A stretch of DNA of 33,894 bases from Anaerolineae bacterium. GTDB taxonomy: Bacteria; Chloroflexota; Anaerolineae; Aggregatilineales; Phototrophicaceae. Made by a program: the position numbers and the translations under genes. The stretch's first letter is position 1. Every line of letters starts with the position of its first letter. The stretch is taken from NCBI GenBank assembly GCA_023382675.1, contig JAHDWN010000056.1, positions 1 to 33,894 on the forward strand, written 5' to 3'. The notes beneath the pieces are model-generated. The model was given only the letters and a program-made list of their open reading frames with translations, searched no databases and was not told the DNA's origin. Positions 61 through 33,840 of the stretch are shown one piece after another.

Positions 61-2244
61 TTGATTTCGCCAGAAATTGGCATTTCAGCGGGCACATTAT
101 TTGAAGTCAATTGGGATGCTTTGACAAATCAGATTACGGCTGCAATGTCCCTTGAGAACGATCCATATGACCAGGAAGTGGGGGTAGTTGCCAGAGGTAG
201 CGTCAAAGCAGCCGAACTGCTAGTGAAGAAATACAACTTGGTGATCACAAACGTTCCCTATCTCGGAAGATCACGACAAAGTGATTTTTTGATGGATTAT
301 TTGGACGACTTCTACCCCGTCAGTAAGAATGAACTAGGGTATGTATTTCTCGAGCGCTTCATTGATAATTTGAGAGCAAACTCAGGGGTAATTGCCTTAG
401 TTCAACCGCAGAATTTTCTCTATATGCCGCGATACAAACCTCTAAGAAAGCTATTGCTCCAGACTGATACTTGGCATTATGTGGCAAGACTAGGTACAAG
501 CGCCTTTGAAACCATATCTGGCGAAGTAGTAAATGTAGGTTTGTTCATACTTTCAGGCGCTTACGCCGATGACGATCACATTGTCAACGGCATTGATGTG
601 GGCGAATTAGATTCTGCCGAAGAAAAAGCAGAAGGTCTACATAAACAGCCACAGCAATGCGTGCTTCAACAGAAGCTTCTCGAGTCCAAGGATCATGTAT
701 TCTCATTTGGCTCTGTTTCCCATTCAGAAGAACTTCTTGAGAGTTATGTTGCCTGTTATCAAGGACTCAGAACGGGTGACGCAAATCGCTTCGTTCGATT
801 TGTATGGGAAATACCTCAACGAACCTGGCAGTGGGATCTATTCCAATCCTCAAGCTCGAGTGAAAAAGGTTTCTTCTCCGGTTACACCAATATTCTCTTT
901 TGGGAAAACGCCAGAGGTCAACTTCACCGATATGCAGCAGAGACAAGATCGAAGCTTCATGATATGCATGAAAGCGGGAATCGCTCTTGGGGAAAATATG
1001 GTGTCGCTATCGGACAAATCACTTTGCGAGCAACTGCCTATTTCGGTCATAAATACGACAATCCGATAGCAGTTATTACACCAGATAAGCCTGAACATCT
1101 TGGCTCCCTCTACTGCTTTCTACAGGACGACCAATACTACGCCAGTGTAAAAGAGATCAATCGTGGCCTATATGTTACGAATGCAGCACTAATCAAGATT
1201 CCTTTTGATCTTGAACACTGGCAGGCCGTTGCACAAGAACGCTACCCCAACGGATTTCCCTCGCCTTACTCCGACGACCCGACGCAATGGATCTTTCACG
1301 GTCATCCCTGCGGCAGCGTCGTCTGGGATGAAGACGCCAAGGCGCTCGCTCATGGCGACCTGCGGACAGATGACACGGTGCTTCAGGTGACGGTGGCGCG
1401 TTTGCTTGGCTATCGCTGGCCTGCCGAACTCGATGAAGAGATGGAACTCAGCGCCGAGTCGCGCGAGTGGGTGGCGCGGTCTGGGGAACTGCTCGAATAT
1501 GCCGACAAGGACGGCATCGTGTGTATCCCGTCGGTGCGCGGCGAACGCCCAGCGGCGGATCGTCTGCTCAACTTGCTGGTTGCTGCGTACAGCGATGCTT
1601 GGAGCAACGATGTGCTGGGGCAGCTGCTCGCCAGCGCCGATCATGCAGGCAAGACGCTGGAGACCTGGCTGCGCGACAAATTCTTCAGCCAACACTGCGC
1701 ACTGTTCAACCAGCGGCCGTTCATCTGGCACATCTGGGATGGCCTGCGCGACGGGTTCTCGGTGTTGGTCAATTACCACAAGCTCGATTACAAGCTGTTG
1801 GAGACGTTGATCTACAACTACCTGGGCGACTGGATCACGCATCAGAAGCAGGATATTCACCAGGGGGCAGACGGCGCTCAGGAGAAGCTCGCCGCTGCGG
1901 AGGCGCTGCAAAAGCGCTTGATCCTGATCCTCAAGGGTGAAGCGCCGTATGATATCTTCGTGCGCTGGAAACCGCTTGAAGAACAGCCAATGGGCTGGAA
2001 TCCGGATCTCAATGATGGCGTGCGCCTGAACATCCGCCCGTTCATGAGCGTGCCTGACATCGGCAAGAAAGGCGCGGGCGTGCTGCGTGACAAGCCACGC
2101 ATTGACTGGGGCAAGGATCGCGGGAAGGATGTCGAGTCTGCGCCCTGGTATGCCACGTTCAAGGGCGAACGCATCAACGATCACCACTTGTCACTGGCTG
2201 AGAAGCAAGCCGCACCTACGAGGTCGATGCGGGAACAGACGTGA
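61..2244 (+). CDS. pglX: BREX adenine-specific methyltransferase PglX, 5'-truncated
   Basis: This is the C-terminal 727 residues of a PglX-type N6-adenine DNA methyltransferase. In BREX, PglX methylates host DNA and marks it as self. Methyltransferase motif IV is present as NVPY at residues 64-67 (usual form NPPY) and is followed by the long target-recognition and C-terminal region. The SAM-binding motif I and the N-terminal part, probably 400 or more residues in full-length relatives, are missing because the frame runs straight into the IS-like end at base 55. The TTG at 61 is therefore only a nominal start. GC rises from roughly 47% before base 1200 to roughly 60% after it, suggesting a mosaic gene. 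pglZ starts 38 bases downstream. The fragment alone should not methylate DNA. Confidence 0.85.
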   Translation: MISPEIGISAGTLFEVNWDALTNQITAAMSLENDPYDQEVGVVARGSVKAAELLVKKYNLVITNVPYLGRSRQSDFLMDYLDDFYPVSKNELGYVFLERFIDNLRANSGVIALVQPQNFLYMPRYKPLRKLLLQTDTWHYVARLGTSAFETISGEVVNVGLFILSGAYADDDHIVNGIDVGELDSAEEKAEGLHKQPQQCVLQQKLLESKDHVFSFGSVSHSEELLESYVACYQGLRTGDANRFVRFVWEIPQRTWQWDLFQSSSSSEKGFFSGYTNILFWENARGQLHRYAAETRSKLHDMHESGNRSWGKYGVAIGQITLRATAYFGHKYDNPIAVITPDKPEHLGSLYCFLQDDQYYASVKEINRGLYVTNAALIKIPFDLEHWQAVAQERYPNGFPSPYSDDPTQWIFHGHPCGSVVWDEDAKALAHGDLRTDDTVLQVTVARLLGYRWPAELDEEMELSAESREWVARSGELLEYADKDGIVCIPSVRGERPAADRLLNLLVAAYSDAWSNDVLGQLLASADHAGKTLETWLRDKFFSQHCALFNQRPFIWHIWDGLRDGFSVLVNYHKLDYKLLETLIYNYLGDWITHQKQDIHQGADGAQEKLAAAEALQKRLILILKGEAPYDIFVRWKPLEEQPMGWNPDLNDGVRLNIRPFMSVPDIGKKGAGVLRDKPRIDWGKDRGKDVESAPWYATFKGERINDHHLSLAEKQAAPTRSMREQT

Positions 2245-2282
2245 CAGCGCACAAGCTCACCTTTGATGAGGCGGCATAGATT

Positions 2283-4634
2283 ATGGTCAGCATTCTTGAA
2301 CACTTTGTAACGTCGTTACGCTCGGCAGCGACCTACAACCCCGACGTGCAGGTCGCGCCGCATTGTATCCTGTGGACGGACGCCGATCGCCAATGGGATG
2401 CTGTAATACCTCGTCTGCAGGAGCAAATGCCGGAGTTGTACGTCCTGGGCGACTATGCTCCGGAACAGCGGCGCGGCCCCGCCATCTGGCTTCGATGTGT
2501 ATTGGCTCGCACGATACCTGATCTGAGTCACCCTGAGGATCTCCCTCCGGTGTTTTATCTACCGGGTGTCAGTCGCCAGGATTTGCGCGCGGTCGATAAC
2601 TGCCCGGATCACTTGAAACCACTTGCAGAACTTCAGTATCGAGGTGTCATCTGGTCACAGGTCAACGCCAAAGACTGGACGATTCTTGCGTTCTTGCAGT
2701 CTGCGCAGGGCGGCCTGAGTTTGGACGTCGCTCAAGACAAAGACACCAAGGCAGCAATGAAGATTGCGCTCCCCAATCTCCTGGAGGCAACCACGGAGCA
2801 GTTCAAGGGCAAACGGCTGGATCGCGACGATTTTTATCGTCTGGTCAGCGGTGATCCGACATCGGAGTTGCTCAAGTGGCTGAACGATGGGGAGAGTTAT
2901 CGGCAGCAAAAGAGCGACGATGAGTGGCGGGCTTTCGTCGAGCTCTGTCGCTATCAGTTCTTGTTCAACCCTGAGACTGACGGGCCCATTTCTGCCGCTG
3001 AGCGACTTGCGACTCGCCAGGGCCAATGGTCGGCCATCTGGGAAAGGTATTGCGAGGCGCACACCAGCTACAAAGCCATTCCTGATCGTATCCGGCAGGC
3101 TCGCTCCCCATCAGACCAGATTGACTGGCGCGACCCAACAGGTGATGTCTACTCGGCGTGGCCTCAATGGAACGACCTTCATGAAGACGCCCTGCGTGAA
3201 AACCTGACGCAGCTTGCCGATCAAGTCCCAGGGAACGCCGCGCAGGTGCTTGACGAACTTGAAAGACGGCATGGACACAGACGTCAATTGATCTGGGCCA
3301 GATTAGGGATGGCACCGCTTGCGCAGGCGCTGGAACATCTCAAAGTGCTCGCCTTAACGACACAGCAGGTTCCGCTCGCAGGTGGAACCCTTGATGATCT
3401 GGTTAGTGGTTATACGGCAAGCGGTTGGCGCGCCGATGACGCCGTCATGCGCGCACTGGAGTGTGTGATCAAACCTGACGACAAGCGCGCTGTGACTGCC
3501 GCCATTCGTTCTGTCTACGTTCCATGGGCAGAGAAAGCAGCACGTTACCTGCAGCAGTTGGTCGAAGTGGAGGGATATCCAGGGGGAAGTCACAAGTCCT
3601 CTCCGCCCAAGGAATATGCCCCAGGCACGTGCATACTTTTTGTTGACGGCTTGCGGTTTGACATTGCGCGGCGCCTGGTCGAGCAGTTGGAGTCGAAATT
3701 CAGTGTCGTAGAAGGTGTTCGATGGGCGGCTATCCCCAGCGTAACGGCGACCGGGAAGCCAGCGGTTTCTCCGGTGGCGGGGCAAATTGCTGGACGCGAC
3801 TCAACGAGTGATTTCGAGCCGGATATTGCCGAAACGTCTAAAACAGTCAAGCATGATCGGTTTGAAAAGTTGCTCGACGATTCAGGGTGGACGATATTGA
3901 AGAACTCGAGTACAGGTGACCCTTCTGGCAGAGCCTGGACAGAAGTCGGAACGATTGACACTGCCGGTCACAATGACAATCTTGCACCGAAGCTCGATAC
4001 AACAATTGCCGATATCGCCACTTATGTTGACAAGCTGCTCTCGGCGGGCTGGAAACGGATAGAAATCGTTACCGATCACGGATGGCTATACGTGCCCGAT
4101 GGTCTGCCAAAGATTTCCTTGCCAAGGAATCTCACCGACAATCAATGGGGCCGCTGCGCAGCAATCAAGCCAGGTGTGTCCACGCAGGATCGTCAATTCC
4201 CGTGGTACTGGAATCCAAATCAATACTTCGCACTTGCTGACGGTATCAGCTGTTTTAAAAGTGGCATCAACTATGCGCATGGCGGGGTGAGTTTTCAAGA
4301 GTGTTTGGTGTTGAATCTAGCTGTTTCTATAGGGGCCAGTCAAAAGACTCCTGGTTCCATACTGGTGGCTGATGTGGAATGGCGAGAACTCCGCTGCGTA
4401 GTCACGATTGAAGGTGAAACGGAAGGCTTATCAGTCGATATTCGGAAACAACCAGCGAACGCAGAAAGCAGCATAGCCTTCAGCACGAAGGAAGTGAAGC
4501 CAAATGGAACAGCATCGCTGGTGGTAGAAGACGAAGAACTGCTCGGCTGGAGTGCGTCGGTCGTTGTTTTGTCAAAAGATGGGCAGCTAGTTGCCCAGAT
4601 GCCAACAAAAGTGGGCGGAGATGCAAATGGTTGA
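2283..4634 (+). CDS. pglZ: BREX phosphatase-superfamily protein PglZ (type B-like)
   Basis: A 783-residue PglZ protein, normal length for the type B variants of BREX type 1 systems. The N-terminal stretch (YNPDVQVAPHCILW, then YLPGVSRQDLRAV) is characteristic of that subgroup. The alkaline-phosphatase-like PglZ domain lies at roughly residues 445-690. It carries the metal-binding motif VDGLRFD near residue 454 and VTDHGW near residue 596; a short C-terminal beta-rich part follows. PglZ is essential for BREX defence and acts with PglX, though its biochemical substrate is not settled. The start is the ATG at 2283, with only a weak upstream GATGAGG. The stop overlaps the start of brxL, so the two are probably translationally coupled. 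Confidence 0.92.
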   Translation: MVSILEHFVTSLRSAATYNPDVQVAPHCILWTDADRQWDAVIPRLQEQMPELYVLGDYAPEQRRGPAIWLRCVLARTIPDLSHPEDLPPVFYLPGVSRQDLRAVDNCPDHLKPLAELQYRGVIWSQVNAKDWTILAFLQSAQGGLSLDVAQDKDTKAAMKIALPNLLEATTEQFKGKRLDRDDFYRLVSGDPTSELLKWLNDGESYRQQKSDDEWRAFVELCRYQFLFNPETDGPISAAERLATRQGQWSAIWERYCEAHTSYKAIPDRIRQARSPSDQIDWRDPTGDVYSAWPQWNDLHEDALRENLTQLADQVPGNAAQVLDELERRHGHRRQLIWARLGMAPLAQALEHLKVLALTTQQVPLAGGTLDDLVSGYTASGWRADDAVMRALECVIKPDDKRAVTAAIRSVYVPWAEKAARYLQQLVEVEGYPGGSHKSSPPKEYAPGTCILFVDGLRFDIARRLVEQLESKFSVVEGVRWAAIPSVTATGKPAVSPVAGQIAGRDSTSDFEPDIAETSKTVKHDRFEKLLDDSGWTILKNSSTGDPSGRAWTEVGTIDTAGHNDNLAPKLDTTIADIATYVDKLLSAGWKRIEIVTDHGWLYVPDGLPKISLPRNLTDNQWGRCAAIKPGVSTQDRQFPWYWNPNQYFALADGISCFKSGINYAHGGVSFQECLVLNLAVSIGASQKTPGSILVADVEWRELRCVVTIEGETEGLSVDIRKQPANAESSIAFSTKEVKPNGTASLVVEDEELLGWSASVVVLSKDGQLVAQMPTKVGGDANG

Positions 4635-6675
4635 GCTAGACGCAATAGATTCGCTTGCTGCTGAGCATTTTGATGGATACCTGGTTCGAAAAGACTTGGT
4701 ACGAACCTTCAGCCGTCAGTTTCCAGTACCTACATATGTGGTGGAATTCTTGCTTGGGCGCTACTGCTCAAGCACGGATCCGGATGAAATCAAAGAAGGT
4801 CTGGATATCGTTCAGCGTCAGCTGCAATCGCGCACAGTCAAGGCAGATGAACAAGAACTGTTCAAGGCACATGCGCGCGAGAATGGGCAAGTAAAGCTCA
4901 TTGATCTCATTACCGCGAGGCTTGACTCTCGAACCGACTCTTACCTGGCAACGCTGCCCAGTCTGCAACTTAAGGATGTACGGATAGACGCTGAACTTGT
5001 CAATCAGCATGAGCGAATGTTTACGGGTGGATTCTACGCCGAGATTACGCTGGGATATGACGCCGCTATTGCTCAGGAGAAATATGGTCGTCCATTCAGC
5101 ATCGACAACCTACGCGAGATTCAGTTGTCCAAGCGTGATGTGCTCGATGTGACAGCAGAACATCGAAAGGCTTTCACTCGTGACGAATGGATCGTCTTCC
5201 TGCTTCGAAGCATTGGCATTGAGCCTGTTGGGCTACCAGAGCGGGCGAAGATTGCATTGCTTCTTCGGATGGTTCCGTTTGTTGAGCGAAACTACAATCT
5301 CGTTGAGTTGGGCCCGCGTGGAACGGGTAAGAGCCATCTGTTTCAGCAGATTTCTCCATATGCACACTTGATTTCGGGCGGGAAGGCAACCGTCGCCCAG
5401 TTGTTCGTGAATAATGCGACTGGACAACGGGGTTTGGTGAGCCAATACGATGTCATTTGTTTTGACGAAATCTCAGGCATTTCGTTTGATCAGAAGGACG
5501 GAGTCAATATCCTTAAAGGATACATGGAGTCCGGCGAGTTCAGCCGAGGAAGGGAAAGCATTCGTGCCGATGGAAGCCTCGTCATGGTGGGCAACTTCGA
5601 TGTCGACGTCGAGCATCAGCAGCGGGTAGGGCACCTATTTGGTCCGCTTCCACCCGAAATGCGCAACGATACCGCGTTCATGGATCGAATTCATGCTTAC
5701 CTGCCGGGCTGGGACATTCCCAAGATCAACAAAGAACTGCTCACCGATCATTTCGGACTTGTAGGCGATTTCTTGTCCGCTGTATGGTCAACACTGCGTA
5801 CCTACAGTTATGTTTCGTTGCTTCACAACCGCGTCTTCTTCGGTGGAGCTTTGAGCGGGCGAGATACAAATGCCGCCAACAAGAGCGTAAGTGGCTTGTT
5901 GAAACTTGTGTTCCCTGGAACTCCAGAGATTGTCACTGAGGAAGATGTCGAGTGGGCTGTGCGTGTTGCACTGGAGTCGCGTCGGCGTGTCAAGGAACAA
6001 CAAAAACGGATCGGAGCAGCCGAATTTCGAAATACGCATTTCAGCTATGTGATGGGTACGGACGGGGTCGAGAAGTTTGTCGGCACTCCCGAGCTACATA
6101 GTGAGAATAGCGTTGGAGCTGATCCCTTGGAGCCAGGACAGATCTGGACAATCAGCGAGGGCGGGGAAAATGAACATCCAGGACTATTTCGCCTCGAGAT
6201 CAGTGAGATAAATGGATCGGGGGTCAAGATTCTGAACAAGCCGGCCCCACCTGCATTCCGGGAAAGTGTAAGTTATGCAGAGCAAAATCTCTATGCACGT
6301 GCGACAAGCCTCGTTGGGGACAAGGATCCACGTCAACACGAATTCTCAATCCAACTTCGAGCATTTGACGCAGCGAAATCAGGTGCCAGGGTAGGGGTCG
6401 CAATATTGGTCGCGTTTTGCAGCGCTCTCCTAAAGAAGAGTGTTCGAGGCGGCTTGATCGTTGTCGGAGAAATCAATCTTGGGGGATCTATTGAGTCAAT
6501 CCTCAATCCAGTAACACTTGCAGAGATTGCGGTGGAGAAGGGGGCTACGGCTCTGCTATTGCCGGTTTCATGCCGTCGACAACTACTGGATTTGTCGGAT
6601 GATATGGCAACGAAAATCGACATTCAGTTTTATGCTGATGCGCGCGATGCACTCCTCAAGGCTATCATTGAGTAG
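4627..6675 (+). CDS. brxL: BREX AAA+ Lon-like protein BrxL
   Basis: BrxL is an AAA+ protein with a Lon-protease-like C-terminal fold that assembles on DNA as a ring and is needed for phage restriction in type 1 BREX. Walker A is GPRGTGKS at about residues 229-236 and Walker B is ICFDEIS around residue 280. The Lon-like domain occupies roughly the last 190 residues. The expected GPSAG-type serine context reads KSGARVG, so proteolysis is doubtful, as in studied BrxL proteins. I chose the ATG at 4627 because GGAG lies 6 bases upstream and the start overlaps the pglZ stop (ATGGTTGA); in-frame ATGs at 4591 and 4621 are alternatives. It is the last gene of the BREX unit here. Confidence 0.93.
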   Translation: MVELDAIDSLAAEHFDGYLVRKDLVRTFSRQFPVPTYVVEFLLGRYCSSTDPDEIKEGLDIVQRQLQSRTVKADEQELFKAHARENGQVKLIDLITARLDSRTDSYLATLPSLQLKDVRIDAELVNQHERMFTGGFYAEITLGYDAAIAQEKYGRPFSIDNLREIQLSKRDVLDVTAEHRKAFTRDEWIVFLLRSIGIEPVGLPERAKIALLLRMVPFVERNYNLVELGPRGTGKSHLFQQISPYAHLISGGKATVAQLFVNNATGQRGLVSQYDVICFDEISGISFDQKDGVNILKGYMESGEFSRGRESIRADGSLVMVGNFDVDVEHQQRVGHLFGPLPPEMRNDTAFMDRIHAYLPGWDIPKINKELLTDHFGLVGDFLSAVWSTLRTYSYVSLLHNRVFFGGALSGRDTNAANKSVSGLLKLVFPGTPEIVTEEDVEWAVRVALESRRRVKEQQKRIGAAEFRNTHFSYVMGTDGVEKFVGTPELHSENSVGADPLEPGQIWTISEGGENEHPGLFRLEISEINGSGVKILNKPAPPAFRESVSYAEQNLYARATSLVGDKDPRQHEFSIQLRAFDAAKSGARVGVAILVAFCSALLKKSVRGGLIVVGEINLGGSIESILNPVTLAEIAVEKGATALLLPVSCRRQLLDLSDDMATKIDIQFYADARDALLKAIIE

Positions 6676-7003: not shown

Positions 7004-10000
7004 TTACTTTGACTTCAGTTTCTCAATGATTTGCTGACACAATTCCTGTGGCGTCATTCGGTTTGCGTTAACATACCCAATTGTCGACACGATGCCCGGG
7101 ATTTCAGTGTCATCGAACCGTACAGGAAGAATGTATTCCTTGCTCGCTTGGAACGCGCGTGCTTGCGCACTCCGCCGCTCATGGGTTGTCCATAACTTCT
7201 GAGCATACGCCTTGGAAAGGAACATCACACAGTAGCGCGCCTTCTTCCGGTAGATTTCGTCCAGGTGGACATACAGATCTTTTCCCCAGAGATCAATCTG
7301 AGCATGATCAAATTTGTAGTAAAACACTCTTGTCCCATTTGCCTTAAGGCAATCGGCAACTAAATCCACATAGGCTGTGTCTTCCCCTGCACATGAGAGC
7401 GCAATATCAAAGTTGTACATTGACTCCTCCAGGGATAATGACTGAATATCATGGGTTTGGCGACCATCACGCATTGGAGCGCTCGCTACCCTATCGCCAT
7501 TTTGTTTGAGGTGCGATGCTAATGTTCGCGTCAACTCATCTGGACTTAGGTCAAGATGCTGAATTCCGGCTATGTCCATCCTTTCTATATCCCTTAAAGG
7601 TATGTTATTGCCGACGGTCCATACTTTGAAGCTCGCTAAAGCGTATGTTGCCTTCCAGCCTTGGACGATCCGGATGTCGGTTGAGGAAGGGTAAAGCATC
7701 AATAAGCTGCTACCTTGGAAGAGGAGATCAAGAAGCAACCTTTGGAGATTCTGAACGCGCAATACGTTCTCCTGTGACTCATACTCTTGTTCAGTTAATG
7801 GGCATCTTGAACTCTGCTCCACGTCAAGAGTTCCGTAGAGCTTGTAGATATGAGTGACATCCGAATTCGAGATCGAATGCGCAAGATGATCCTCGATTAC
7901 TTTGTGCGACTTGTTTTGGAGGTTATAGAAACCTTCGATATAGGAGTGTTGGTTAGTTGTGAAGATTGCCTTCCAAGGCAAGCCGGGAAGAAATCGAAAA
8001 ACATCCGGCGCTCTATCGACCGAGAAATAGGCGATGTGGTTTGCGAGGAGTTGATCTCGACTAGCATATTTCTTGACGAAGATCGATGCCATGCTCCGGT
8101 GAGTATCCTCTGGCAATGGCGAATATCCTACTTCACGCATCAAACGTGTCATGAGATGGAATGGAGTTAGATAGCTGGGATCATCTCCCGATCGACGGCC
8201 AACAAAGAGTATGACTTCGCCCTTAGCGAGTTCGTCAAAAAGATCCACCTGTTGGCGGGTCAAGGGATTCATTGAGTCGACTTCGTTGTTTGATTCGTGT
8301 GGAATGTGAGCATCGATAACTCGAAGATCCGGAATAATTGAATAGCCTTTGTCCAAACTCTCAAGCCGAGAGCAGATCAGCGAAGCCGAGATCAACGCAT
8401 GAATCTTCTTCTCAGTAGTGACATGCTTAAGGCGAATTACATTTAGAGTGGCCATTAGCACCGCTACAAGAATCTCAGACTCATCGTCTGGTGCTGTTGG
8501 AAATCCTTGTTGCTCACGACAGAGCTGTCGAATTTGCTCGATGATGACACTTGTCCTAGCAAGTAGTAGGTTATCTGAGACCTCTTCTTCGTTAATGGTC
8601 TCAAGTCCGAGCAAATGCTTTTCTAATGTTATGAAGTCGGGCAAATCTAGTTTTTCTGCGAGCCTGTACTTTATGTCTGATTCCAGGACAACCAGATCCC
8701 GCAGTATGTGGCTCTCGCCTGTCCTATAGAAATCGATAAGCCACATTTTGTGATAGACGAACGTCTTGCCTTGTACGTGTTCGATATACTCCGTAGTATC
8801 AGTCATGATGTTACGTCCAGTCAAATCGCCATGGGTTACACAACGATACGCTGGAAGAATGCATCGATCTCTATGTGTCTCGAGCCACAAAAATGGGTTG
8901 AGAAGTGCGTCTTTAAGGACTGCAATCTTGAATTGAGGAGAATGCGGATCAAATTCAACCACGTATTTTCGCACGTCATCATTCTCTAGGACTTCGTCAA
9001 TGACTCTCTGCAACCGCCCCTTTTCTTCTAGTTCGAACGCCTGATAGTAATCGTCCGGTAAATAGAATATTTCTTGGTTCCGTTCCCCGTACAATAATCG
9101 GAAGGTTCGCTCGAATACGAACCGCAGTCCCTGGCAAATCGCCTCGTTTCTAATCTCATGGTTCTTGAACAGAACGTCGAATTCACGGAGTTCAGAACCT
9201 CTCTCGTTTTCCGCAAACCGATAACATATTGCGCCAAGATCACGGGTGGAGGCCGCAGCAGCGGCAGTTACTGCCCCTCCCGTAAACTTGGGCGAAACAA
9301 GCTCTGAGTAGTTCTTGTATTCACGTTCGATTTTGTCACGCCGACCTATCTTGACGACATAACGCTGCCCCAAACCTCGTGTAGTACCGGAAGGGCGCGC
9401 ACGGATAATAGCGGCGCCCGTCAATCCCGACGACATTGTCGACAAAAAAAGCTTGTCTTCATTGTAGAAGAGTTCATTGAGCAAATCATAAACCTGCAGG
9501 GCGATCACATCAGGAGAAATGAGTGATTCTGAGGGCAGAGACTTCCATTTATCTTCGGGAGTCAAAAGGGAACTGATTTTGGGACCCTCGTGTTCAATTA
9601 TGTGCTCCACTGCTTTGGGGATTACTTCGAGATCTGAATTGACCTGAAACTCCAAGTTGAGTTTCACACTGTGGTTTATACGCGCCCTTTGCCGTTCATT
9701 ACGTGACTTTGTACTATCAAAAGCCTCGTCCAGTGCCTTTGTGAGGAGAGTAACGTAATCTTCCTCATGGGCATCGCTATATTTCTTTAGAGCCCTAAAA
9801 ACTCCCCATTCACCAAGAGCGCGCGAATATAGGTCGACATCAGGGTAATTCGTTAATATAATCCGAGTCAGAACATCATTAAGACGGCTGCTATGGATAT
9901 CGGACAGCAACCGTTCGCCAGATCCACGTTCACCGATTTGACTTGGTCCCTTTCCCGCATTCAAGAAAATATCCACAATAGCTACATGAAAGTGGTTGGC

Positions 10001-10147
10001 ATGAAGTTGAAACCTTGCATCATCAACATCTGTCGCGAGTGTGACCTCATAGCCTTTTTGTCGCAAAACCCGTAATAGTTGTTTATAGAAGATCTCGTCG
10101 TCTTCGACAAGGATGATGCGACGCTTTCTCTGCGGAAGTTCGAACAT
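7004..10147 (-). CDS. Response regulator with kinase-like, SIR2-like and TIR effector domains
   Basis: Residues are numbered from the TTG at 10177. The receiver domain (20-150) has acidic pocket D26/D27, phosphoacceptor D69, T109 and K131/K132, so it looks competent. Residues 245-600 resemble an aminoglycoside-phosphotransferase/choline-kinase fold: K276 in YVVKIG, HGDLTGRN at 449-456 and D482 in LIDF. Residues 636-870 resemble a SIR2-like NADase, with TTN at 740-742, but the expected KLHG reads KLYG (Y781), so it may be inactive. Residues 919-1054 are a TIR domain with candidate catalytic E1000 in WTTHERR. There is no DNA-binding domain or membrane segment. The ATG at 10147 with AAAGG 7 bases upstream is my preferred start; the TTG at 10177 would overlap the kinase-gene stop by 4 bases. 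Likely role: phosphorylation-gated NAD+ depletion (inference). Confidence 0.82.
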   Translation of the reverse strand: MFELPQRKRRIILVEDDEIFYKQLLRVLRQKGYEVTLATDVDDARFQLHANHFHVAIVDIFLNAGKGPSQIGERGSGERLLSDIHSSRLNDVLTRIILTNYPDVDLYSRALGEWGVFRALKKYSDAHEEDYVTLLTKALDEAFDSTKSRNERQRARINHSVKLNLEFQVNSDLEVIPKAVEHIIEHEGPKISSLLTPEDKWKSLPSESLISPDVIALQVYDLLNELFYNEDKLFLSTMSSGLTGAAIIRARPSGTTRGLGQRYVVKIGRRDKIEREYKNYSELVSPKFTGGAVTAAAAASTRDLGAICYRFAENERGSELREFDVLFKNHEIRNEAICQGLRFVFERTFRLLYGERNQEIFYLPDDYYQAFELEEKGRLQRVIDEVLENDDVRKYVVEFDPHSPQFKIAVLKDALLNPFLWLETHRDRCILPAYRCVTHGDLTGRNIMTDTTEYIEHVQGKTFVYHKMWLIDFYRTGESHILRDLVVLESDIKYRLAEKLDLPDFITLEKHLLGLETINEEEVSDNLLLARTSVIIEQIRQLCREQQGFPTAPDDESEILVAVLMATLNVIRLKHVTTEKKIHALISASLICSRLESLDKGYSIIPDLRVIDAHIPHESNNEVDSMNPLTRQQVDLFDELAKGEVILFVGRRSGDDPSYLTPFHLMTRLMREVGYSPLPEDTHRSMASIFVKKYASRDQLLANHIAYFSVDRAPDVFRFLPGLPWKAIFTTNQHSYIEGFYNLQNKSHKVIEDHLAHSISNSDVTHIYKLYGTLDVEQSSRCPLTEQEYESQENVLRVQNLQRLLLDLLFQGSSLLMLYPSSTDIRIVQGWKATYALASFKVWTVGNNIPLRDIERMDIAGIQHLDLSPDELTRTLASHLKQNGDRVASAPMRDGRQTHDIQSLSLEESMYNFDIALSCAGEDTAYVDLVADCLKANGTRVFYYKFDHAQIDLWGKDLYVHLDEIYRKKARYCVMFLSKAYAQKLWTTHERRSAQARAFQASKEYILPVRFDDTEIPGIVSTIGYVNANRMTPQELCQQIIEKLKSK

Positions 10148-10173
10148 CTTTGGGCCTTTGAGCACAAGGTAGG

Positions 10174-13017
10174 TCAACCGTTAATCTTCCACCATGCGGG
10201 CTTAATGGGCAGTCGCAAACACATGACTGTCCCTTTCCCAACGCTGCTTTTCTCAACGTACAAAGTTCCTTCGTGAGCTTGAGCTAGCTCCCGAGCGTAG
10301 AACAATCCGATACCATGTAGCAGGCGGTCGTGTGGGTTGGTTGCAGTATAAAATGGATCGAATATTTTCCCCCATACACTCTCGTGCATGCCGACGCCAT
10401 TGTCTTTCACTCGTATTAACCAGTAACCTTTGGACCTCTTCACGGAAATCTCGACGATGCCCTCAGTGTCCTTCCGAGATATCGCCGAATAAGCATTAAG
10501 TAGAAGATTCTTCAGAAGCAGCTCAATCCAGACCTTATCTACATGTACTCTCGAATGGATATGCCGCGGATTTGTCTTTATTTCAAGATTCTCGGGTGCA
10601 TCGTTAATCGCAGCTTGAATACTGGTGTCGATTAGCTCGCCAAATGTAACATAGTCTGGACTGAAGTTCCGCGTCTTGAGAAATTCTTCTAACCTTTCGT
10701 TGATACGACTTACGCCCTCTACGGCACTTACGACGCTATGGATCTGTTCCGAGTAGATCGAAGTGAAATCCTCTGAGATGTCTGACATCTCCTTCATTGC
10801 TGCGGGAATGACACCAGTTACCGTGCGTATGTCGTGTATGAGTCCTGTCGCAAGCACCGCAATCTCTTGTCTCCACTTCTGCTCCTTTCCTCGTTGAAGG
10901 TCAACGTGCTCATGAGCTTTTTGCAACGCAATCCCGGCGAAATCAGCTATGAGTCTTAGCAGGGCGTGGTGTTCCTTTTCATTAAATGGGTCTGGCAAAT
11001 CACTCTCGACAATAAGTGCTGCAGTGCTTGAAATCCTGATACACAATTGAGATTGAGTCGACTTGATAGCCTCAATGTAGTGTTCGATACTTCGGTCTTT
11101 GATGTTGCACTCAATCAGAATATCTCCATCTGAATGATACCTCATGACCATCCCCGCCAAACCCATGCGTTTGTCAGCATTGACTATGAACCCCTCACCT
11201 GACTTTGGCGGATCATCCAGGCGATAGAATCCATTGAGACTTACGGGCCCAATATAAAGGCGATGGGATGTAGGGAGATATTCGACGAATGCACAATTAT
11301 GAGCGATTCCGCTAAATTCCTTGCTTATGGTACTCAATATTGTCCTCATGACGTCATCAGGGTTCAGACTCTTGATAGCAAGCGCCAATTCCTGCACAAT
11401 CTTCAGGTGCCGCTTTTCTCGCTCCGATTCTCGAGATTGTAGTGCGCGATTGAAAGCGGTGGATGCCGACTCGACGAAAAGCTCTAGGAGATTTCGTTCC
11501 TCTTGATCAAATTGGTGTTGCATTCTGTAGCAGAAGAAAATCGCTCCAACGTTGCGAAGATTTGTTGAATGCACTAATCCTCGCATGGCATAAGCTGCAA
11601 CGCTACTGATTCTTTCGCTCTTGCAGAAATCGCTGGACAATAGAAGCTGCTCCATCTCTGAAGCACCCACAGATGCCAAGAAGACTTCGTTAAGTCGATT
11701 GTCAGAAGCGTCAAATCTGTCAGGATCGCGTAAACCGTACTGTGCTATGAACAGCTCGTCTGTCAGGTCATCGTTGTAGCAAACAATAAGGGCATCAAGC
11801 GATCGAAGTGCTTTGCTTATCTCACTAACTAGAATTTCGGCAATCTCATGAAGATCGAGACTTTCGGCAAAACGTATTGAAAGTTCCCGCAATGCGACTA
11901 GGGCGTTGGTAGCGTCATATTGTCTTGTGACAGCTGCCAGTTGTCGGCTGTAGCGCGCCAAAATGCTTTGGTTGCGGATTACCTGCGGGCTCTTTCTGAA
12001 GCTTTGCCCGAAAAGTTGAGGTATTAGGACTTGGTTGAAAAAGATTCCTACACAGGTTTCTCCAACCCGGATGCTCGCCGCCACAACATATGAATGTGGA
12101 TCAGCAGTTTCAAGCTTATGTTTTGAACGCCACGCGAAATAACTGCGGGTAGGTTCATTCTGGGCCGACTGAAAAAACTGGACGATCTCCTTGGCAAAAC
12201 TCAACAATCGGTTGTGCTGCGGAGAATCAAGATCTTCTATGTTGATTTCTGATGTCTGGTCGATCTCGTACTTTCGCCATCCGCCGAGAGGAATCTTTAT
12301 TACCAAAAATGTGTCGCGAAGTTCTTCGACTAGTTGCCGAAGAAGTCCGTCGATTTCTTCGTGAATATCTATTTGTGTCTTACGTTCGTTTAGACTGAAG
12401 ACCAGGTGTTCAAAGCGCCTCGTTGGTGAGTTATTGATTCTGTTTTGTTCACGAATACGTTGGTGAGCTATCAAGTGGGAAACCTGGTAGACATACATTT
12501 GCAGAACGTTCAATTCAATGTCGGTGAACGTTCTTGTTTCAAGCCAGTTAACATAAAGTATGCCGATAGGCGATTCTGGTTCTCCAAGTCTGAATCCTAC
12601 AAAAGAGCGTATCCTCTCGCTACTAACAAAGGTGTTGTCAACATATAATTTTAGTTTCTTATTAGTCTCTATTTCATCCATGTAGATTGCTGGATAGGTG
12701 AAAACATTTTCAACTACGAGCAGATTTTGTCGTATTATGAATTCTGCAATTCCTGAACCGGCACGGATAGGCTGAAGCCTCCCTGCCACATCTTCAGGAT
12801 CGCAGCTGATGCTTTCCGTAACGTAGCGATCGTTGGCATCACCTGAGTTAGTCAAGGTATACAAGACCGCACAATAGGAATCTTCGAAGATGTCTCGCAC
12901 AGAAGTAACAATGGCACCGTTGACGTTCTCGGGGGTATTCCGTGCTGTAATCTCGACGAAGTTTATCGCCTTGTACAAACGATTGAATAGAAGCTGGATC
13001 GTGGTTTCGCTAGACAA
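10174..13017 (-). CDS. Soluble multi-GAF sensor histidine kinase
   Basis: A 947-residue histidine kinase without transmembrane segments, so it should sense a cytoplasmic cue. Three to four GAF-like modules occupy roughly residues 15-170, 180-355, 370-545 and 550-715. The transmitter follows: phosphoacceptor H728 in LIHDIR, N-box asparagines N837/N841, G1 motif DNGVGM at 872-877, F-box IFDPFY and G2 motif HGIGL at 901-905. All residues needed for ATP binding and autophosphorylation are visible. The start is a TTG at 13017, chosen because there is no in-frame ATG before the upstream stop and the first GAF module begins close by; the ribosome site is weak. Its stop lies directly before or overlaps the regulator start, so the two are one operon and almost certainly cognate partners. 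Confidence 0.88.
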   Translation of the reverse strand: MSSETTIQLLFNRLYKAINFVEITARNTPENVNGAIVTSVRDIFEDSYCAVLYTLTNSGDANDRYVTESISCDPEDVAGRLQPIRAGSGIAEFIIRQNLLVVENVFTYPAIYMDEIETNKKLKLYVDNTFVSSERIRSFVGFRLGEPESPIGILYVNWLETRTFTDIELNVLQMYVYQVSHLIAHQRIREQNRINNSPTRRFEHLVFSLNERKTQIDIHEEIDGLLRQLVEELRDTFLVIKIPLGGWRKYEIDQTSEINIEDLDSPQHNRLLSFAKEIVQFFQSAQNEPTRSYFAWRSKHKLETADPHSYVVAASIRVGETCVGIFFNQVLIPQLFGQSFRKSPQVIRNQSILARYSRQLAAVTRQYDATNALVALRELSIRFAESLDLHEIAEILVSEISKALRSLDALIVCYNDDLTDELFIAQYGLRDPDRFDASDNRLNEVFLASVGASEMEQLLLSSDFCKSERISSVAAYAMRGLVHSTNLRNVGAIFFCYRMQHQFDQEERNLLELFVESASTAFNRALQSRESEREKRHLKIVQELALAIKSLNPDDVMRTILSTISKEFSGIAHNCAFVEYLPTSHRLYIGPVSLNGFYRLDDPPKSGEGFIVNADKRMGLAGMVMRYHSDGDILIECNIKDRSIEHYIEAIKSTQSQLCIRISSTAALIVESDLPDPFNEKEHHALLRLIADFAGIALQKAHEHVDLQRGKEQKWRQEIAVLATGLIHDIRTVTGVIPAAMKEMSDISEDFTSIYSEQIHSVVSAVEGVSRINERLEEFLKTRNFSPDYVTFGELIDTSIQAAINDAPENLEIKTNPRHIHSRVHVDKVWIELLLKNLLLNAYSAISRKDTEGIVEISVKRSKGYWLIRVKDNGVGMHESVWGKIFDPFYTATNPHDRLLHGIGLFYARELAQAHEGTLYVEKSSVGKGTVMCLRLPIKPAWWKING

Positions 13018-13516
13018 CTTGTCGGTAATTCCGGTTATGTCGACACGTTAATAATAATCCCAAATGCGAAACTGCCCTGGTAGACTCGCTGGGAACTTCA
13101 ATCGCTCCAAATTAGGCTAGGATATTAACCGTTTAGTCGTCATGATGCAACCAATAGCGATGTCCCATGGGAATGCTGGTTCCATGTGGCGCCACCAGAA
13201 CTCCAGTTGAAGTCCGACCAACAACAAGTGCTATGCACTGCGCCAAGAGTTAGAACCCAATACGGTTCGGTTAAGCAAATACGAAGGAGAAACCTGCCAT
13301 GCTTGACGCATAGTTCTCCCGTACAGAGCTTCAGAAAAAGTCAGAAGATATTGCTAGAAATCCCTTATCCCTACCGTATTGAGTTAGAACCCAGCAACCA
13401 CATATATGCTTCGCTGCTGGCGGCCACATCAAAAGGACGGCTTGGACGGTGTATATTGACCGGGAATGGGATAGGGGATCTCTTGTAGTGAGGCAGTCTC
13501 TTGCCTGCTCACGCCG
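13018..13516. other. Intergenic region upstream of the kinase operon
   Basis: No gene is supported in these 500 bases. A + frame of about 100 codons (13186-13488) is open but has no recognised similarity. It spans the MITE-like insert at 13260-13380, which supplies its middle third, so I treat it as chance. The kinase promoter should lie near 13020-13140, where the minus strand is AT-rich, but no -35/-10 pair is convincing. Confidence 0.45.
13247..13393. mobile_element. Candidate 121-base MITE with flanking 13-base direct repeats
   Basis: The core runs from 13260 to 13380. Counting the shared A at 13259, its ends are imperfect inverted repeats: AATACGGTTCGGTTAAG on the left and, on the opposite strand at the right, AATACGGTAGGGATAAG (14 of 17 match, first 8 identical). 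The core is flanked by the exact direct repeat GAGTTAGAACCCA at 13247-13259 and 13381-13393, as a target duplication would give. It is too short to encode a transposase and would depend on one elsewhere. Thirteen bases is long for a target duplication, so a non-transposition origin is possible. No second copy was found in this window. Confidence 0.5.
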
Positions 13517-14256
13517 CTAATTCCTTTTGCGGTTCACAATCTGATGCACGCGCTGTTTCGTGATGCCGTAGCGCGCGGCCAGGTCACCAAGTGATACTCC
13601 TGCTTCATATTCCGCAATCATCGCGGCGTTGCGGCTGCTTTCTTTCGGTGTCTTATTGTTGACGGGAAACGTGGGTTCTGGCTGGTTGGCGTAGAGCATT
13701 TCAACGAAGCGCATTATGGCTGCATCGACATCGTGTACGGAGCTGAGCCATAGTCCCGTATGGAGCATCGCTTTACCCATGCTTAGAGACCCATCAGCGG
13801 TCTCTTTTTGTTTGTCCTCGTGCTCGTACAAGGCCGCTCGAAGAACGATGAAGCGATCTGCCCACGGCTTGAGCCTGAAGTCGGTGATGCAGCGGCGATC
13901 CAGGTCGTAGGTCACAGACGAGAACAAATTCCGCACTAATCCCTGCCGATCCTCATCGCTCGATATCGTCCACAGCCGGTGAATCTTATCGACCGCCTCG
14001 ATACACAGGGCAAACTCAAGGCCCAGCTTCTCAGTATCAAACGTGCGCGACTCCCAGTGGGCGATTTCAGGCACTTTCCACCCTATAGAGTAAAGCCGTT
14101 TGACCTCGTTGTTGCGCTCTGTCTTGGGTTGCGATTTGCCCGTAATTGGCTCATCAGGATGCGAAAGTCCTGCGTTAAGCCGCTGGGTCAGGGCAAAAAC
14201 TGCCTCTTCCAACGAGGGTAATGGTCTGGCTAATAAGCCTAAATGGAGCAGACCAT
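13517..14256 (-). pseudogene. Chimeric remnant of a large serine recombinase C-terminus
   Basis: The open frame (13517-14212, 231 codons) joins two out-of-order pieces of a serine recombinase. Its first part (DNA 14059-14250) matches the extreme C-terminal coding region at 30607-30798 with no gaps and about 84% identity by hand count. Its second part (DNA 13859-14068) matches the upstream coiled-coil region at 30902-31111, also without gaps. The join lies in the shared bases GGGCGATTTC. It then continues into a different C-terminus with a helix-turn-helix (SLGDLAARYGITKQRVHQI). The catalytic domain, recombinase domain and zinc ribbon are all missing. The best explanation is a deletion between two tandem recombinase genes by microhomology. 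It cannot be an active recombinase. Confidence 0.75.
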
Positions 14257-30553: not shown

Positions 30554-32199
30554 CTATTGCCCCTTCAGAATCTGGTACACGCGCGGGATCGACACATCGA
30601 AATACCGGGCGATGTCCGGAACTGTCCACCCTATAGAGTCCAGCCGTTTGACCTCGTTATTGCGCTCGGTCTTGGGTTGCGATTTGCCCGTAATTGCCTT
30701 GTCAGGACGCGAAATTCCTGCGTAAAGCCGCTCAATCAGAGTGAAGACAGCCTCTTGTAACGAGGGTAATGGTATTGTCAATAAGCCCGTATGGAGCAAC
30801 TCCGTACACGCGCCTTGACGGTCTTGTTGAGGCGCGTTTTCTTTGACATTCGCCGCTTGTTCCAGCTCATGGAGGCCAGCGCGAACCGTCAAAAACCTTC
30901 CTGCCCAGGGCTTGAGTCTGAAGTCGGTGATGCGGCGGCGATCCAGGTCGTAGGTCACGGACGAGAACAAGTTGCGTACCAATCCCTGGCGATCCTCATC
31001 GCTCGATATCGTCCACAGACGGTGAATCTTGTCGACTGCCTCGACACACAGGGCAAACTCAAGACCCAATTGCTCGGTCTCAGAGGTGCGCGACTCCCAA
31101 TGGGCGATTTCGCGCTCGTTTTGTTCGCGCAGGCGCAGGTATTCTGCTTTGTCGATAGTGCCCTCTTTGTACAGATTCACTGCTGCTTCTATCCGGCGAT
31201 AGCAGAGGGCAAGTGCTTCGGTCTTTTCCTGTTCGAAATCCCGCTGTTCGTGTACCTGTCGACCATTGTCAGCCTGGATGGCAATCTCGAGCATGAGGTG
31301 TTCAACCTCTGGCTTCACCATGAGCAGCCCCATCAGTCGAATGAAGTCCTGCTCCAGTTCCGCGCTTGGTACGGAGCGATTGTGAATACCACATTTGACG
31401 CCCGGCTTGTGACGATAACGGAGTATGCCGTTTGCAAACTGTCCACTCAGCGGACTCCGCAGCCGAGGGTCTTCCTGGCTTTCAGCCAGCTGCTCGCAGT
31501 GGGCGCAGTAGAGGACGCCTGCTAGAGGATAAAAGCGCGTCTCATGGTTCTTGCCATGATCGGATGGCTTTCTCGTTCGCTCCATGCGCACCTCTGCAAC
31601 TGCGCGCAGGAGTTCGATAGGGAAGACGGCACGATCTGAACGAAAAGGCAGTTCATCGAGATTGAGCGTTTCGTAGGCAGGCCGCCACTTGGTTCCCTTC
31701 TCAAATACGATGCCACCGTATTCCGCCCAATTACTGATGACCCGGCGTACATCATCAGAGTTCAAGGCGCGCGGCGTGTTAGTGCGGTCGCGAAACGCCC
31801 AGTTCTCCTTGTTCATTCGATAGGCAATTCTGTCAAGCCCGTACTTGCCGGTGCTATAAAGGCGCAAGATGCGCTCTGCAGCTGCATGGTAGCTCTTGAA
31901 GACTGCCTCCTCCTCAGGCGGTGCGTCAGCTGTCCCGGTTACCCATGTCCCGTCGGGAAACAGCCACGCGCCATCCGGAGCGGGCTTCAGATACCCATCG
32001 TCGCCACGAATGGAACCAAACGGTTGTGCTCTTTGGTCCCAGATTTGTGCTTCTCTGCGTCTTCGTAGATCTCAGGAACCCATCCATTCTTTTCGCAGAC
32101 TGCCATGATGTTTGCGCGCTGGCGTTCAGGGCTGTCGCGATCATTGGCGTCGCGCGTAAATGACTGACGGACGTAGCACAATGCGATCGTGCGCTGCAT
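30554..32199 (-). pseudogene. Large serine recombinase, inactivated by internal deletion
   Basis: The N-terminal fragment (31987-32199) has the serine resolvase start CYVRQSFTRD with the nucleophilic serine, and runs to SGTKEHNR. The other frame resumes at about 32020 with PFGSIRGDDGYLKPAP. It then encodes the recombinase domain (GKYGLDRIAYRMN), a zinc ribbon (CAHC ... CGIH), a coiled coil and a C-terminal helix-turn-helix (VPDIARYFDVSIPRVYQIL), ending at 30554. By comparison with relatives, about 95 codons of the catalytic domain, including the SRLxR region, are missing and the frame has shifted. The longest intact frame is 30554-31867. Start at 32199 is favoured by AGGAAAGC just upstream. 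Its 3' part is duplicated at 13859-14250. Confidence 0.85.
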
Positions 32200-32215
32200 T
32201 GCTTTCCTGAGCTTC

Positions 32216-32479
32216 CTAGACTTTCTGGGGTACATGGCGGCTTCCTTTCTTGCTTATACGTTTCCATCTCGTCTTCATCAGATGCTTGGCCGTGATGATG
32301 GCAATGGTGTCCATGAAGCTTGCGAATTCTCTGCGAGTTGTCGTCAGCTGACCGCGGTCGGCGAATTCAAGCTTTTCGCAGACCTGCCGCGCGTACTCGC
32401 TGATTTCATCAAGTGGCGGCGGGACATACTCGAACGTATATTCCTGTTTTGTCTGGCGGGTTTGGGCCTTATCATTCAT
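32216..32479 (-). CDS. Small hypothetical protein upstream of the recombinase
   Basis: An 87-residue protein, not recognised, rich in charged residues (N-terminal KAQTRQTKQEYTFEYVPPPL; C-terminal RWKRISKKGSRH). AGGAG lies 3 bases before the ATG. It is 16 bases upstream of the recombinase start on the same strand, so the two were probably co-transcribed. Small basic proteins often precede large serine recombinases and may act as directionality or accessory factors, but nothing in this sequence shows that role. Confidence 0.5.
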   Translation of the reverse strand: MNDKAQTRQTKQEYTFEYVPPPLDEISEYARQVCEKLEFADRGQLTTTRREFASFMDTIAIITAKHLMKTRWKRISKKGSRHVPQKV

Positions 32480-32551: not shown

Positions 32552-32616
32552 ATGACAGGCTGCGCGATACTACGCGTTAGCCAGCCGCTGCTGCTGTATT
32601 CAGCACGGTTCGGTTA

Positions 32617-32662
32617 GCCCCCGCGCGGTGTTGGTAGCACCGTTCGGGGGCGTTTTGTTTTT
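32617..32662 (+). terminator. Rho-independent terminator, plus strand, with no gene before it
   Basis: GCCCCCG at 32617-32623 pairs with CGGGGGC at 32645-32651, with an inner CGGTG/CACCG stem, followed by GTTTTGTTTTTG. All called genes within 2 kb are on the other strand, so the RNA it terminates is unknown. Confidence 0.65.
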
Positions 32663-32670
32663 GTGACTTG

Positions 32671-33033
32671 TCAAGCACTATATTGCATTCTATGAGTCTG
32701 CGTCAAGTTACAACGTCTGTACTTTGCCGCGCTACCCTGTACGTGGTACCGGGGTCTTGGTTTTATGGCATGGTAGGCGAAGTAAACGAAGCGGAGGAGG
32801 TGGGTGGTGCGCGGGTGGTTAAGTGAGTGGCGAAACAGCCGCCGCTCCTCGTCTTCCAGGCGGTTCTCATAGGCGCGCTGTACGCCCGAGAGCCGTTTCT
32901 GTTCCGCCCAGCGAATGAGTTCGATCAGTTCGTTCTTTCGCCGCAATGTCGCTAATGTCAGGTGAATTAGGCTGCACTGAATGCGGATATCGTCAGTAAC
33001 ACTTTTCATAGACTTATGAGTCGAATCTATCAA
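32671..33033 (-). CDS. Hypothetical basic protein
   Basis: A 120-residue frame, not recognised. It is rich in Arg, Lys and Leu, with a helical centre (RRKNELIELIRWAEQKRLSG, then RAYENRLEDEERRLF) and a basic tail. It starts at a TTG; the ATG 8 codons later (33009) is an equally good start, and neither has a strong ribosome site. A minus-strand terminator follows at 32509-32551, which supports transcription on this strand. The steady charge pattern favours a real gene, but the evidence is thin. Confidence 0.35.
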   Translation of the reverse strand: MIDSTHKSMKSVTDDIRIQCSLIHLTLATLRRKNELIELIRWAEQKRLSGVQRAYENRLEDEERRLFRHSLNHPRTTHLLRFVYFAYHAIKPRPRYHVQGSAAKYRRCNLTQTHRMQYSA

Positions 33034-33157: not shown

Positions 33158-33274
33158 TCAGTAATTCCGTACCACTTCGCGTTGCTTAAGTTCGTTGAGC
33201 CGTTGCCACCGAGCTTCAATCTTTGGGCGATATGAGTCGCGCTTGTTGTTATCCACGCCGCGCGGATCGCTCAT
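33158..33274 (-). CDS. 38-residue ORF coupled to the NACHT-like gene
   Basis: MSDPRGVDNNKRDSYRPKIE begins this short protein, which ends KQREVVRNY. Its ATG overlaps the stop of the upstream gene as ATGA, the usual sign of translational coupling. The 124 bases after it hold no gene that I can see. It has no recognised family. It could be a real small partner or a chance frame; the overlap is the only support. Confidence 0.4.
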   Translation of the reverse strand: MSDPRGVDNNKRDSYRPKIEARWQRLNELKQREVVRNY

Positions 33275-33840
33275 TGCGAAAGCCACGCCGTCACTCTTTC
33301 TATCATACTGTGTAGGAATTCAGCTCTGCGTTCCATACTGGAGATCTGATCGTAAAAGTGGTTGTAGATGAAATGGAAATCCAGAAGATCTTGAATTTCC
33401 CACGTACTATCCATATCGTCAACTTGTTTCTCACAAGATGCCTTTTCAGAACGCGCCTTCCGGTGTTCACCGTGAAGAGTCGTCAGGAAGTCTTCTACCA
33501 TCCTTTTGTTGATGTTTCGCCCCATGAAGATACAGTCCACTGCAAGCTCAATGTCAATCCCCATAAGTTCCTTCAACAAAGAATCTGGTTCACTGGTTAT
33601 TCCGTAGTACATTCTAATTGCATTGTACCATCTCGTATTGGGCCTGAAGCGATCAGCCGGTGGCCCTTGCAGTGATAAGGTTCCGCTTAACCCGAGCCTT
33701 TGAAAGTAGAGAGCCACGAAATAGTCTTGAATCAGATGATGGGAGAAGCCGATGGTTTCGTCCCACCGTTCAAGAATGCTTGCACTACGCAATACTTCAA
33801 CCAGTCCCTGTGCGCGTTTTTCCTCATCGGTTGTTAGGTT
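33271..33840 (-). CDS. NACHT/STAND-like NTPase, C-terminal fragment
   Basis: About 190 residues of a larger protein, truncated at its 5' side by the right IS-like end. The frame is open from the junction, so the TTG at 33792 is not a true start. The segment LRSASILERW, then GFSHHLIQDYFVALYFQ is the conserved helical end of the NTPase module in bacterial NACHT proteins, just before their sensor region. A helical C-terminus rich in Asp, Glu and Arg follows. NACHT/STAND proteins are common anti-phage sensors. The P-loop region is missing, so the fragment should not work alone. Confidence 0.7.
   Translation of the reverse strand, partial: NLTTDEEKRAQGLVEVLRSASILERWDETIGFSHHLIQDYFVALYFQRLGLSGTLSLQGPPADRFRPNTRWYNAIRMYYGITSEPDSLLKELMGIDIELAVDCIFMGRNINKRMVEDFLTTLHGEHRKARSEKASCEKQVDDMDSTWEIQDLLDFHFIYNHFYDQISSMERRAEFLHSMIERVTAWLSQ

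Follow-up and report, generated by a model that had tools for sequence, protein, structure and literature searches.

The window, by which we mean the whole analysed stretch of 33,894 nucleotides from an Anaerolineae bacterium (Phototrophicaceae), contains a short element with inverted ends and exact flanking direct repeats (Table 1). It lies next to two adjoining large genes on the minus strand (7004-13017) that combine signalling with defence-type domains in an unusual way: one of them has response-regulator, TCAD9, SIR2-like, and TIR domains, and the other has GAF and histidine-kinase ATPase domains. The genes at 61-6675 look like a portion of a BREX-type phage defence set, with an Eco57I-type methylase, a PglZ match below the cut-off, and BrxL (N-terminal and ATPase domains). 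On the other side of the element there is a 231-aa reading frame (13517-14212), to which related DNA occurs elsewhere in the host genome (C29) and in genome G002, with weaker similarity in G080, G132, and G135. The longest coding candidate over the element itself, at 13186-13488, would encode 100 aa and is the only listed frame of at least 90 aa crossing it. No Rfam match at gathering scores was found in the window, and no sigma-70-type promoter match was found in 13000-13560.

Table 1. Position and parts of the short element in the window.
Feature	Position	Strand	Description
Left copy of the target duplication, AGTTAGAACC	13248-13257	+	10 bp, exact
Whole element	13258-13381	.	124 bp, termini C-AAT...ATT-G; edges follow the register seen in 71 related elements
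Left terminal inverted repeat, CAATACGGTTCGGTTAAG	13258-13275	+	15/18 identical to the other end; fits the IS4-subgroup end consensus
Interior	13276-13363	.	88 nt; similarity to 7 compared elements not above the shuffled level
Right terminal inverted repeat, CAATACGGTAGGGATAAG (read on the minus strand)	13364-13381	-	fits the IS4-subgroup end consensus
Right copy of the target duplication, AGTTAGAACC	13382-13391	+	10 bp, exact

An earlier note on this DNA had described a 121-base core between 13-base direct repeats and had proposed it as a candidate new MITE. The repeats GAGTTAGAACCCA are indeed exact, at 13247-13259 and 13381-13393, and the 17-nt imperfect inverted ends are present at 13259-13275 and 13364-13380 with 3 mismatches. 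The limits of the core are better moved outwards, and the element is better described as 124 bp with 18-bp ends and a 10-bp duplication, its terminal letters being C at 13258 and G at 13381. The 13-mer is better read as the target duplication plus tip letters, where the extra G, C, and A are tip letters or chance matches, because the 71 related elements described below show that register.

How often would such a structure arise in DNA of this composition? The whole window has 34 exact 10-nt direct repeats spaced 60-300 nt apart, and only one of these pairs (13248/13382) is accompanied by 18-nt inverted ends that differ at no more than 3 positions; the runner-up has 11 mismatches. Among 3478 repeat pairs from 300 dinucleotide-preserving shuffles there was none with 3 or fewer end mismatches, and the lowest number was 5. 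Since none of the 300 shuffles gives such a structure, the observed combination of inverted ends and direct repeats is real and beyond chance.

The tips led to short elements of cyanobacteria. Exact matches to the left tip AATACGGTTCGGTTAAG were sought in public genomes and found at at least 115 loci, and the 80 of them with listed titles are all cyanobacterial as judged by genus names; the scan says nothing on other phyla. With up to 2 mismatches the left tip occurs at 91 to 498 sites (both strands) in each of six cyanobacterial genomes, where the reversed-tip control occurs at only 2 to 4. Among the matches listed, 82 exact left tips were paired with an inward partner and 39 were unpaired, several of the latter lying at locus or contig ends. 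Inward reading frames of at least 250 aa beside 8 chosen tips of these 39 included no transposase recognisable by eye.

The boundaries and the duplication length were read from 71 of these short elements. They are flank-distinct pairs measuring 61-299 nt from AAT to ATT, in which one tip is exact, its partner has no more than 3 mismatches, and 30 nt of flank are present; the other pairs and the unpaired tips of the at least 115 loci were left out. When the flanks were compared at registers 6 to 16, a single register of ten consecutive positions stood out. Each of the ten inner positions matches in 55-60 of the 71 elements, and each of the two outer positions in 17. All ten inner bases are identical in 39 elements, and at least 8 agree in 53. 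The base to the left of AAT (-1) is C in 67/71, and the base to the right of ATT (+1) is G in 64/71. The ten-position agreement and the conserved C and G therefore mean that the related short elements have the form C-AAT...ATT-G and make a 10-bp duplication. The window element conforms to this register at all 10 of 10 flank positions.

The cyanobacterial elements with AATACGGTTCGGTTAAG (Nostoc, Fischerella, Brasilonema, and others) are 82-297 bp long and share with the window element an identical left 17-nt tip, the C/G termini, and the 10-bp duplication. They differ from it in their high copy number, and the interior is unrelated in L102, the sole one of them that was compared. Nezha, reportedly a published MITE, is a possible counterpart of these elements.

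Complete elements with matching tips provide the link to a transposase. L185, in a genome of the host's taxonomic family (G115), is 1481 bp long and has the tip AATACGGTTGGGATAAG at both ends, with 1 mismatch to the right tip of the window element (16/17 identical) and 2 to the left. It encodes a transposase of 458 aa that has PF13006 and PF01609 and scores 168 bits against NF033592, above the cut-off of 115. The flanking sequences of L185, GGCTAAAGCC and GGCTTTAGCC, match at 8/10 positions and are near-palindromic, so we rate its target duplication as probable, not proven. L162, from the genome that carries the Nostoc calcicola locus L050 (G156), is 1488 bp long, with tips AATACGGTTCAGTTAAG and AATACGGTTCAGTTAAA and an exact 10-bp duplication, TTCTATATTG. 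Its protein of 414 aa has PF13006 and PF01609, matches NF033592 (IS4 family) at 190.5 bits, and is 26% identical to E. coli InsG across an alignment of 384 positions (E 7e-33).

In the six cyanobacterial genomes, 30 loci out of 150 PF01609 matches were examined. Paired tips round a transposase were found at two of 32 compared PF01609 loci, L162 and L169, and these two loci are the ones that match the L162 protein closely. L169 is related to L162 (78.9 and 88.0% identity over its two main pieces) but is broken, with a fragmented transposase; its tips are paired, and its flanks agree at only 4/10 positions. Three other loci (L163, L173, and L180) have one tip-like end each, with 3-4 mismatches, and do not match IS4-type proteins, and L179 is a distant match to such proteins without a tip.

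Across 151 genomes, the host among them, the L162 protein had matches in 7 and the L185 protein in 9, and the host was in neither group. IS4-like transposase matches have a tip or a tip-like end beside them in G115, G047 (two places), G134, G148, G145, and G029; the matches in G145 and G148 extend to the contig end, and G029 has a short IS4-type piece (a 49-aa open frame) next to its tip. The matches of G061, G079, G109, and G117 are weak or partial and showed no adjacent tip. Two further complete elements, L190 and L184, both belong to G047, a genome of the host's taxonomic family. Their flanks agree at 7/10 and 3/10 positions respectively, and their tips differ from those of the window element more than the tips of L185 do. 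The Y-(2)-R-(3)-E-(6)-K signature is intact in L162 and in E. coli IS4, while in the transposases of L185 (1450-2826) and L190 (1165-2583) D replaces K at its end.

In Table 1 of De Palmenaer et al. 2008 (PMC2266710), the IS4 subgroup is given ends -AATR--------WTW---- and direct repeats of 10-13 bp; the same source gives a size of 1400-1650 bp, a relaxed first nucleotide, and cut-and-paste as the mode of movement of the IS4 family. Both window tips fit this published consensus, which is loose and weak alone, with 18 single sites fitting it in the window. The exact 10-bp duplication is inside the tabulated range, and the similar-tipped complete elements have PF13006 and PF01609 transposases. 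In contrast to the subgroup as described there, with a YREK DDE transposase within 1400-1650 bp, the window element has 124 bp without such a frame. Because it has no transposase, it has IS4-subgroup ends only and is not filed as an IS4 insertion sequence. E. coli IS4, as read from MG1655, has tips AATGCCGATCAGTTAAG and AATGCCAGTCAGTTAAG, which are 13/17 and 12/17 identical to the left window tip and 9-10/17 identical to the right one; it differs in having T/A outside instead of C/G and a 12-bp duplication.

In the host genome (96.46% complete, 110 contigs), no second copy was found by DNA search and no protein matched the IS4-type transposases of L162 or L185. With up to 3 mismatches the tip has 9 sites there, two of them the element's own ends, versus 7 for the reversed control, so single tips in this genome carry little information. 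Near its two PF01609 matches there is one unpaired tip-like site (L021) with 4 mismatches to the right tip, and no left tip within 5 mismatches. The plasmid collection gave three matches only, at E 0.3 or worse, one of them a tip in Nostoc.

DNA search in the relatives gave matches at E of 1 or less in 30/101 genomes; these extend over about 40 nt at most, and the strongest, leaving aside the window's match to itself, has E 0.009. The string AATACGGTNNGGNTAAG at one mismatch is present in 71/151 genomes, and the reversed control is also present in many of those; for this reason only paired tips or tips adjoining a transposase were used in relatives. Small elements with paired tips of this type are present in relatives of the host. 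G117, from the same taxonomic family as the host, has three copies (L032, L035, and L036) with 114 bp between AAT and ATT and a similarly asymmetric tip pair, AATACGGTTGGGTTAAG and AATACGGTAAGGATAAG; the interior, compared for copy L035, is not similar to that of the window element above the shuffled level. G013 has two small elements of about 275 bp (L010, L011) and G065 two of about 155 bp (L013, L015), all with paired tips of the same type. The flanks in G117 and G013, read by eye, fit a duplication of about 10-11 bp, some of them with mismatches.

The 88-nt interior was compared with seven elements, including L185, L162, L102, and L035, and 16 to 196 of 200 shuffles scored as high as the real sequence. 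An empty site was sought in 150 relatives and by comparing the joined flanks with every gathered locus except four copies of the window itself, and no relative aligns across the site. Only L193 and L197 align, rightwards from window positions 13492 and 13518, leaving the site uncovered. The earlier note held that the lack of another copy anywhere, together with conservation of the region as ordinary intergenic DNA in relatives, would refute its proposal; the host has no second copy, but the 150 relatives searched do not preserve this stretch as intergenic DNA, and other genomes do have elements with ends of this kind.

Taken together, the tips, the duplication length, and the transposases linked to such tips assign the ends to the IS4 family, IS4 subgroup. 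We consider it very probable that this is a MITE-sized non-autonomous element with such ends, which was moved in trans as a small unit and made a 10-bp duplication. Thus the earlier note's remark that it is not recognisable as a described family does not hold at the family level. The proposal of a MITE survives as far as a small non-autonomous transposon is concerned. The element is short, has inverted ends and a target duplication, and lacks a transposase gene; other genomes carry similar-tipped elements in several copies, and the autonomous elements with very similar ends (L185 and L162) lie in other genomes, none having been found in the host. A MITE family in the host is not supported by a single copy, and because there is one copy in that genome the wording is 'MITE-sized element'. 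The search for further copies, suggested in the same note, was empty in the host and positive for same-type paired tips in its relatives. In the literature searched, the string CGGTTCGGTTAAG occurs only in unrelated work and none of the papers found for Chloroflexi and MITEs concerns this element, both as judged by title; no paper joining the IS4 family, MITEs, cyanobacteria, and Nostoc was found.

Could the element instead have arrived at full size? It may be what is left of a complete IS4-type element whose transposase was removed by an internal deletion after insertion, and it would then never have moved as a small unit. The single genomic copy, the interior unlike any compared element, and the transposase piece at a tip in G029 are in agreement with such a history, but the duplication has stayed perfect, short elements ending in these tips are common elsewhere, and the interior has no similarity to complete L185 or L162, so we regard this origin as unlikely. 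It is much less probable still that a transposase of a different family was at work and that the tips resemble those of IS4 by accident: while the interior bears no family mark and the three single-tip PF01609 loci do not match the IS4-type proteins, the scanned proteins of the paired-tip complete elements L162 and L185 belong to the IS4 family, other tip-flanked proteins match those two, and the end consensus and duplication length fit the subgroup as tabulated by De Palmenaer et al. A chance arrangement in ordinary intergenic DNA without transposition, to which the missing second copy and empty site in the searched genomes might point, has a negligible likelihood given the shuffles, the same duplication register elsewhere, and the excess of left tips over the reversed control in six cyanobacterial genomes.

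Movement in trans of a small IS4-ended unit would have proceeded as follows. An IS4-type DDE transposase from a complete element with matching tips would have moved the unit to this site, and staggered joining at a 10-bp target with fill-in by the host would have left AGTTAGAACC on both sides. This copy presumably moved by cut-and-paste at its present small size, and its source may have been a relative of the L185 element. The element is probably immobile now, because it has no second copy in the host genome and searches there revealed no IS4-type transposase, which would leave it stranded.

A broader possibility, which we consider doubtful, is that the tip system CAATACGGT-NNGGWTAAG with its 10-11 bp duplication represents an IS4 branch common to cyanobacteria and the host lineage. 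Such a branch would have kept a near-unchanged recognition sequence, its transposases and small elements might act across the two groups, and its host-side members would have Y-R-E-D and not Y-R-E-K.

With these comparisons an otherwise anonymous repeat can be classified, delimited exactly, and linked to a transposase that plausibly mobilised it, and its kin can be recognised by C-AAT...ATT-G together with a 10-bp duplication. For the field this is a minor addition, one more non-autonomous element with IS4-type ends, real but ordinary.

At about 32604 the window has a string, CACGGTTCGGTTAG, which was earlier regarded as related to the tip and lying near a recombinase. The string is present, and no matching second end was seen near it, as had been said; its relatedness is not borne out, since it has 4/17 mismatches to the tip and about 0.8 such sites are expected by chance in the window (our own arithmetic), which is to say that it is at chance level. 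A recombinase could not be confirmed among the neighbouring genes: the frame 30554-31867 has only a weak helix-turn-helix match below the cut-off, and the frames 31926-32267, 32671-33033, and 33271-33792 have no domain match. The same string opens a stable RNA hairpin (32596-32670, z -4.3), which was not flagged by the terminator scan and is followed by a T-rich stretch.
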